DNA from: Candidatus Poribacteria bacterium
Lineage (GTDB): Bacteria > Poribacteria > WGA-4E > WGA-3G
DNA length: 64,000 nt
Direction: 5' to 3'
Assembly: GCA_012267415.1 (NCBI GenBank)
Contig: JAAXGN010000084.1
Span: 1 to 64,000, forward strand
Part shown: positions 15,816 through 53,319 of the stretch, in pieces
Layout of the letters: every line of letters begins with the position of its first letter
How positions within the stretch are numbered: the first letter of the stretch is position 1
Notes under the pieces: model-generated
Databases searched by the model: none
The model's input: the letters and a program-made list of their open reading frames with translations, nothing else
What the model was told of the DNA's origin: nothing
Program-made: the position numbers and the translations under genes

Positions 15816-16834
15816 TAATTTTCTTCGGTAGTTTCAGTGTTTTTGAAGAAATCTATCAGATCTGTCCCGTGGGTACTTGGGTTAACTTCTTTGTCAATTT
15901 TAACGATTTTTCCACTCTTATCTATAATGATCGTGATTCTCTTCAATCTTTCATCAGTCGGTTTCTTAGCTGCACCGTATAGTAATGCAAGGTTTCTCTG
16001 TGTATCTACGAGAAGTGGGAAGTTGAGTTTATTTTTCTCTGAAAACTTCTGACGTGACTCTTTATCGTTTCCTGTTATTCCGAAGACTTGAACATCATGA
16101 CTTGCAAATGCACTCGACTCATCACGGAGTGAGCATACTTGAGCCGTTCAGCCACGTCCAAAATCTCTCGGATAAAATGCTAAGACGACGTTTTTCTTTT
16201 CACGTAATTTGCTCAGTTGATGTTCTTTACCTTCACCATCTACAGCAATAAAGTCAGGCGCGTTTTCCCCAACCTTTATCTTTGGTAGGACACTCTTTAG
16301 TGTCTTTACGACATCTTCACCATGCGTTTTAAACTTAACATTTCTATCTATACTTCTAATGTACCCCGCCTTGTCAATCACAAAAGTAACGCGATTTGAT
16401 GCATTAAATCTCTCCATGATACCACTGTACCTTTTGCTTACATCAAACGTTGTATCAGCTAACAGCGAGAAACCGAATTGATTTTCATCAACAAACTTTT
16501 TGTGAGATTCGACGGAGTCAACACTAACACCGAGTAGTGTTGTCTCTTGTTCTTCTATTTCGCTCAATTTATCCCGGAGCGACTTGAGTTCAGTTGTTCA
16601 TCCACCGGTAAAGTCTTTGGGATAAAATGCCAAGACAACATTTTTCTTTCCCAGAAATTCATTCAGGGTGCGTTCAGTGCCTGTTTCGTCTTTCAATTTA
16701 AAATCTGGTGCGATCATACCTACTCTAAGTTCTTTCGATTCTTCCACTTTTTTCTCCGCTATTGCTGTTGGTATAGTTAGAGTTGCTATCATACAAGCAG
16801 CTACAACATAAGCTATCATTGATAATTTGTTCAT
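15815..16834 (-). CDS. Exported tandem peroxiredoxin with two in-frame UGA codons at catalytic Cys positions (candidate selenoprotein, Sec79 and Sec229)
   Basis: One continuous frame 16834->15815 joins ORFs 16598-16834 and 16148-16567 and a third segment: signal peptide, ...FYPKDFTGG[UGA]TTELKSLRD...FYPRDFGRG[UGA]TAQVCSLRDESSAFASHDVQVFGIT...STHGTDLIDFFKNTETTEEN-TAA. Confidence 0.85.
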
Positions 16835-16948
16835 ATTTTACCTCTGTATGAGTGTGTACGTGTTTTGTTGTCTTTTTTTTGAAAAGACGGTACTCGGAGA
16901 GTGCCTACTACTTCCGAAGAGACGGCACTCGGAGAGTGTCTACTACTA

Positions 16949-52546: not shown

Positions 52547-52675
52547 TATGAAGATTAAGATATAAATTGGGCAATATTTCGACGGGCAATGAATTGTCCT
52601 ACTACGAACCAACCCGTTTGTAGTAGGGCAATTCAGTGCCCGTCGATTACCCCAAGGATTTTTTAATCTTCCTAT
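52547..52675. repeat. MITE-like element, (T)ATGAAGATTAA ends, core gacgggcaat...attgcccgtc
   Basis: Left TATGAAGATTAAG, right reverse complement ATAGGAAGATTAAAAA; inner long palindrome. Confidence 0.7.
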
Positions 52676-52701: not shown

Positions 52702-52720
52702 ACAGTGGCACCGCCACTGT
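52702..52720 (-). terminator. Strong hairpin ACAGTGGC-GGT-GCCACTGT (terminator or SECIS candidate)
   Basis: 8-bp perfect stem, 3-nt loop, followed by T-rich CATTTTCTTTG. Confidence 0.6.
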
Positions 52721-52742
52721 GTTAGCCTCCTCAGCCTCAGCC

Positions 52743-53228
52743 TCAGCCGCCAGAAGCCTGCTCAATTTCACGGATTTCAGGTTCTGGGGGTGCAACAGTG
52801 CTATCCGGATCTCCGAAGAGTAGCGCATACCCACCCTTACCAAACCATGAACCTAACGACAGGTGATAATCATCAATATCGTCGTGTGCCAAGAAATCTC
52901 CGCGTAATTTGTGGTCGTGCCTTGCGAAAAAATAGTGACGATCACCGTTCCAATACAGTTCTCCGTTCATTGAGATACGATATGCGGTATTCGGGATTGG
53001 ATCCATATCGTCCGGATGGACATACTCAAGTGGTATCTTTAGAGCTTCAATGAATTCATCTACTGAACCACCTGCTTCAATGTATGCAAGGACATCGTTC
53101 CAGTCAGCAAGACGAACACCTTCTCCCAATTGCTCTTGGCATTCGGCTTTAAGATCTTCGGTCTCATCTAAATCGTGAGCCATGACGTGGAATTGTTTGT
53201 AACTTGCTGCGATTTTTTGTTTTGACAT
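52743..53228 (-). CDS. Hypothetical protein; frame may continue through three UGA codons to UAA at 52722
   Basis: 161 aa ORF; ...EIEQASGG then UGA GGC UGA GGC UGA GGA GGC UAA. Confidence 0.7.
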   Translation of the reverse strand: MSKQKIAASYKQFHVMAHDLDETEDLKAECQEQLGEGVRLADWNDVLAYIEAGGSVDEFIEALKIPLEYVHPDDMDPIPNTAYRISMNGELYWNGDRHYFFARHDHKLRGDFLAHDDIDDYHLSLGSWFGKGGYALLFGDPDSTVAPPEPEIREIEQASGG

Positions 53229-53319
53229 TATGTAAATCTCCTTTTCTGTGTTGTATGAAATCGTTGATTTCAGTATAAATTATTGTTAGAATAACGAAGT
53301 GTGCCTACTACTTTTAATT

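Follow-up and report, generated by a model that had tools for sequence, protein, structure and literature searches.

A 2026 catalogue of prokaryotic selenoproteins comprises 119 families; its bacterial members mostly contain one selenocysteine (Sec), a few contain two or three, and bacterial SECIS elements are placed inside the coding regions (PMC13188914). By motif, the selenobacteriocins (TIGR04081, SGUG, two Sec) are nearest to the gene described here, sharing with it a short Gly-Sec motif and the presence of more than one Sec. They have a RiPP leader, whereas our gene encodes a domain of about 140 residues for which NCBIfam gave no match, and maturases of the TIGR04082 class stay below the cut-off; the poribacterial family instead carries up to three Sec in strict alternation with Gly at the extreme C-terminus. 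The UGC-motif selenoproteins (DUF1573 UGC and the UGC-containing TlpA family) have Sec-Gly-Cys in common with our family, and thiol/selenol redox chemistry is likely in both. By profile search they are separate families, and one Sec is catalogued there, in contrast to the repeated C-terminal motif here. Arsenite methyltransferase/AhpD (three Sec) and MbdU (two Sec) likewise contain two or three Sec per protein, but the multi-Sec motifs of the catalogue (UxxG/CxxU, CU) form no Gly-alternating tail, whereas here up to three UGAs, all inside 15 nt, have one hairpin in common. Judged by name, UXX-star, KCU-star and SaoC have Sec near the C-terminus, as in the poribacterial family, so that part of their SECIS must be located past the stop codon; they are unrelated by NCBIfam scan and have mostly one Sec, in some cases in a CU pair. 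In eukaryotes, several Sec are found in the C-terminal region of Selenoprotein P, and thioredoxin reductase has a flexible Gly-Cys-Sec-Gly (GCUG) redox arm. These are different proteins with a eukaryotic 3'UTR SECIS, and their likeness to the poribacterial tail is one of principle only.

The gene is located on the minus strand of a 64,000-nt stretch of DNA, referred to as the window, from a Candidatus Poribacteria MAG (GCA_012267415.1, contig JAAXGN010000084.1, positions 1 to 64,000, forward strand). Up to the first UGA, the reading frame has 161 amino acids (52743-53228, -) and ends with ...QASGG. The tail reads ...GCT TCT GGC GGC TGA GGC TGA GGC TGA GGA GGC TAA C ACAGTGGC GGT GCCACTGT TCATTTTCTTT on the minus strand. 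With UGA translated as Sec, the full selenoprotein ORF predicted from the reading frame and the homologues has 168 residues (52725..53228, -) and the C-terminus SGGUGUGUGG. A Shine-Dalgarno-like AAAGGAG region lies 5' of the ATG (53230..53245, -), and AGGAG-type sites are found in the 20 nt compared upstream of most homologues. A folded domain of about 138 amino acids (52794..53207, -) is delimited by its recurrence in relatives and by AlphaFold2 models, whose confidence is low to medium; it is connected to the tail by a Pro/Glu-rich linker, APPEPEIREIEQAS (52752..52793, -). This linker is probably flexible, with pLDDT below 50 over residues 155-168.

The three UGAs (52743..52745, 52737..52739 and 52731..52733, all -) are predicted to encode Sec162, Sec164 and Sec166, and the true stop codon is TAA (52722..52724, -). 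One base past it begins a hairpin with a perfect 8-bp stem, ACAGUGGC-GGU-GCCACUGU (52702..52720, -), the predicted SECIS, which lies entirely 3' of the stop; its GGU loop is 30, 24 and 18 nt downstream of the first, second and third UGA. Re-reading of the DNA confirmed exactly the ORF coordinates, tail codons, hairpin position and spacings of an earlier, sequence-only reading of this stretch, which had proposed the Sec-containing tail. The pattern TGA-N3-TGA-N3-TGA occurs only twice in the window, both strands counted; together with the same in-frame tail and hairpin in 30 homologous genes, this argues against a tail formed by chance. Just downstream of the gene there is a long inverted repeat, GACGGGCACTGAATTGCCCTACTAC...GTAGTAGGACAATTCATTGCCCGTC (52580-52645), which is probably a dispersed element, either MITE-like or palindromic.

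In 30 distinct homologous genes, ...SGG is followed by an in-frame UGA, Gly, Cys or UGA alternating with Gly, TAA and the hairpin. The tail types are UGCGC (the commonest), UGUGC, UGUGG, UGUGUGG (the window gene), UGUGCGC, UUCGC, UGCUGCGC, UGUGUGS and UGUGUSS. Every one of the 30 genes has a UGA whose distance to the GGU loop is 24 nt, or 23 nt in a single case. Additional UGAs stand 30, 33, 21 or 18 nt before the loop, and at tail positions other than 24 nt UGA and Cys codons exchange between homologues. The number of UGAs per family member is 0, 1, 2 or 3, mostly at 6-nt steps. The homologue without UGA, found as L024 and L061 in genome G007, has the all-Cys tail RGCGCGC in an uninterrupted frame. 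Tails with GGUGU or GGUGC, an all-Cys GCGCGC and a varying UGA count had thus been correctly anticipated from the window alone. Two features expected of a bacterial selenoprotein gene are thus present: UGA codons align in frame with Cys codons of homologues, and coding conservation extends past the UGA. On a quick maximum-likelihood tree, in which many forks are weakly supported, at least nine changes in Sec number are required, and UGUGUGG appears at three separate places. This pattern is consistent with gain of a GGCUGA unit together with swaps between Cys codons and UGA.

These tails bear directly on the alternative that translation ends at the first UGA as an ordinary stop, and that (GGCTGA)3, a microsatellite prone to slippage, precedes an intrinsic terminator. 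The six-base repeat unit does vary in copy number, and the hairpin with its T-rich stretch scores as a terminator. Most homologues, however, contain no repeat and read TGA GGC TGC/TGT GGA TGC TAA in frame; beyond the first UGA, TGC/TGT and GGC/GGT vary synonymously while the TAA is invariant, and the uninterrupted all-Cys version exists. The exchange of Cys codons and UGA in frame rules out a microsatellite past a normal stop. In addition, the GGU loop and the hairpin arms are conserved beyond the needs of termination and disappear together with the last UGA as well as in the tail-less relatives. We therefore regard an ordinary stop at the first UGA as very improbable.

The hairpin is almost invariant in the family (GCARUGGC-GGU-GCCAYUGC). 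Its 19 non-coding nucleotides show 93% pairwise identity. For fourfold-degenerate sites of the gene body the value is 51%, and for the 20 nt that follow the hairpin it is 44%. Of the stem cells, 98.6% are paired. Compensatory or one-sided changes are few (G-C/A-U and G-U/A-U/G-C exchanges), the modest covariation being due to five of the eight stem pairs that never vary. According to published rules, a bSECIS has a loop of 3-9 nt with an early G, a stem of 4-16 bp, a UGA spacing of 16-37 nt and an MFE of -7.5 or below (PMC13188914). With a 3-nt loop starting with G, an 8-bp stem, -11.5 kcal/mol and spacings of 18, 24 and 30 nt, the window hairpin falls within this model for each of the three UGAs; the relative L140 has a weaker hairpin of -7.1. 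In the all-Cys gene, the TAA is followed by GGCAATTGC and the hairpin core is gone; only TAAGGCAATTGC is retained, which reads as fused outer hairpin arms. The genome of this gene still has SelB and tRNA-Sec. The tail-less relatives fused to WD40, TPR or TM segments have no such hairpin either. This retention with UGA and loss without UGA is the strongest evidence for the predicted SECIS function of the hairpin.

An Rfam search gave no match to the hairpin. A chance or dispersed-repeat hairpin was considered and rejected: the core pattern occurs once in its own genome, and the other matches examined in 18 genomes of the genus are in unrelated contexts without such a tail. As an intrinsic terminator, the window hairpin scores on consensus alone, with one found versus 0.8 expected. 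A T-rich stretch often lies 3' of the hairpin, so that part of the hairpin conservation could reflect termination, and the hairpin may double as an intrinsic terminator. Of the rival explanation raised by the sequence-only reading, the terminator thus survives as a possible second role, whereas the microsatellite does not.

The Sec machinery is complete in the source genome, as the Sec-tail reading requires. Profile searches detected SelA (590 bits) and SelB (353 bits versus a cut-off of 242). The tRNA-Sec (77.7 bits) is located on contig C142, 16 bases downstream of the SelB profile match. The SelD gene itself has an internal in-frame UGA, and all four components score above the curated cut-offs. 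The SelD locus (L186, G000:C157:17766-18692) is itself a putative selenoprotein gene, in which the hairpin UUAGCUC-CGGGU-GAGCUAG lies 16 nt downstream of the UGA. Throughout the phylum, SelB exceeds its cut-off in 77 of 85 genomes and tRNA-Sec in 75 of 85. The Sec peroxiredoxin that had been invoked in support of UGA decoding is present in the window (15818-16837, -). It is a tandem two-domain AhpC/TSA protein with a signal-like N-terminus and one in-frame UGA per domain (16600 and 16150), and thus a putative double-Sec peroxiredoxin; the catalogue table gives Prx (TxxU) with one Sec (PMC13188914).

From the in-frame coding past the UGAs, the UGA/Cys exchange, a SECIS that is conserved but disappears once no Sec is left, and the Sec machinery, all compared in MAGs, we conclude with a probability of about 0.93 that the gene encodes a selenoprotein with a post-stop GGU-loop SECIS. 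Its family appears to be undescribed and restricted to Poribacteria. According to the proposed mechanism, the GGU-loop hairpin that closely follows the UAA would be bound by SelB with Sec-tRNA-Sec, and Sec would be inserted at the UGA 24 nt upstream of the loop. Where present, UGAs 30-33 and 18-21 nt upstream would also be decoded as Sec before the UAA terminates translation. The product would consist of a compact domain, a Pro/Glu-rich linker and a C-terminal Gly-Sec/Cys arm. In the window gene, the invariant UGA at 24 nt is the second of three, so the first must be read through.

The third UGA allows a different outcome, in which Sec is inserted at the 24-nt UGA and any upstream UGA while the 18-nt UGA mostly terminates, leaving a product that ends with ...SGGUGUG. 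Only the 24-nt UGA is invariant, and in several genes with an 18-nt UGA the last Cys codon is now Gly or Ser, a replacement that could arise if this UGA sometimes terminates. Against such partial decoding, most relatives have a Cys codon at the 18-nt position, and a UGA is therefore the expected replacement by Sec at this place. Moreover, the two-codon spacer and the TAA are still in frame after the 18-nt UGA in every case, and two genes (L064 and L114, tail UGUGC) keep Cys beyond it. The distance of 18 nt also falls within the bSECIS range of 16-37 nt (PMC13188914). Termination at the third UGA therefore appears unlikely, and we infer that all three UGAs of the window gene are decoded as Sec. 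The tail SGGUGUGUGG of the sequence-only reading is accordingly supported by the homologue tails, the Sec system and the association of hairpin and UGA, with decoding at all three positions deduced from these comparisons.

Of 85 genomes from the phylum, 36 contain the protein family, and all 36 fall in two genera of one taxonomic family. All 50 confirmed loci (50/50) in a GTDB-based contig collection belong to Candidatus Poribacteria MAGs. Searches of the protein against Pfam and NCBIfam profiles gave no match, including the named models of catalogued selenoprotein families, which cover only families having such models; a PDB sequence search found no credible relative. By these comparisons, the gene appears to be a member of an undescribed, Poribacteria-restricted protein family. 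A plasmid or phage origin was also considered, and no match was found. A mobile tail cassette carried by other proteins was likewise rejected, as the four pattern matches elsewhere are short out-of-context frames. One locus, L155 (G063:C106:67425-67511), is what is left of a decayed tail gene (...TVAPPEPDTTEPVQTSGGUSCGC); its hairpin stem is mutated, and acetyltransferase-like ORFs lie beside it.

In the relatives, the domain occurs alone, in tandem, or fused to WD40, trypsin-like/TPR or membrane-anchor segments. Three proteins (L094, L095 and L096) have the domain once or twice between N-terminal and C-terminal membrane segments, a layout which suggests an extracytoplasmic or membrane-tethered use of the domain. 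Tail-less WD40-fused relatives (L074, L078, L088 and similar ones) end with ...LLD and two adjacent stops, for example TGATGA or TAATGA, and have no SECIS-like hairpin; the doubled stop codon is recurrent among them. Two AlphaFold2 models reached a pLDDT of 59 and 64. The Foldseek lists from both models contain mostly C-type lectin folds, none of them significant (E >= 0.3), and a sequence profile search for a C-type-lectin-like domain gave no match. We take a C-type-lectin-like fold as a tentative lead; in such a fold, Cys30 and Cys137 could form the canonical lectin disulfide. Cys137 is nearly invariant in the family; the window gene and its closest relative, L047, each with three UGAs, carry Leu instead.

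The tail itself may be a redox arm. In U-G-C or U-G-U, the two outer residues can be linked by a selenenylsulfide or diselenide bond, which makes a flexible redox pair our first choice and a metal ligand the second; Cys-Gly-Cys arms are comparable. We hold the redox function at roughly even odds. Alternatively, the tail could store selenium or bind a metal or metalloid (Cu, Hg, Cd, As). Each tail offers two to five closely spaced Se/S ligands, and metal binding is proposed for some Sec proteins, SaoB, SaoC and UXX-star among them, in a 2026 review (PMC13188914). Among the neighbours, which were clustered and only partly annotated, no conserved gene points to metal handling, however, and the GU/GC alternation would also suit a U-x-C redox pair. 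A selenium store fits poorly with Cys as an acceptable substitute. We consider metal binding or selenium storage less likely than a redox arm.

A third proposal for the tail is a RiPP-like precursor, with the domain as leader and GG-UGUGUGG as a core with cyclised Gly-Sec/Cys units, as in selenobacteriocins. The double Gly before the tail and the Gly-alternating Sec/Cys resemble the SGUG selenobacteriocin entry (PMC13188914). Yet no NCBIfam model, including TIGR04081, matched a query containing the tail at E up to 10, and the best TIGR04082 maturase score in the genome is 74.8 bits versus a cut-off of 350. The best weak radical-SAM match is located on a different contig and has no precursor of this kind next to it. 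In the gene neighbourhood of the family, clustered and only partly annotated, no conserved partner or modification gene adjoins; the commonest neighbour is a convergent zinc dehydrogenase. The domain also occurs without tail in WD40, TPR and TM proteins, and a RiPP-like precursor is improbable.

No such motif or entry is found among the 119 families in Table 1 of the catalogue (PMC13188914), in agreement with the sequence-only reading, to which an alternating Gly/Sec tail was new. We class the gene with a new family of bacterial selenoproteins, in which Sec is coded in an unusual way, and do not claim a novel type of decoding system. It is likely that one post-stop SECIS serves three Sec (at 30, 24 and 18 nt) in an all-selenium redox or metal arm, and that the Sec number has shifted repeatedly between close relatives by gain of a six-base unit and Cys/UGA swaps.

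Within the literature collection covered, no paper combines 'selenoprotein' and 'Poribacteria', and the family adds a Sec-rich protein to this lineage of sponge symbionts. Because standard gene callers end these proteins at SGG, annotation would lack the part that is likely to be functional. With a hairpin past the stop codon and zero to three UGAs, the family provides a natural test of how far from the UGA a bacterial SECIS works, and it allows one to ask whether a single SECIS-SelB complex serves consecutive UGAs.
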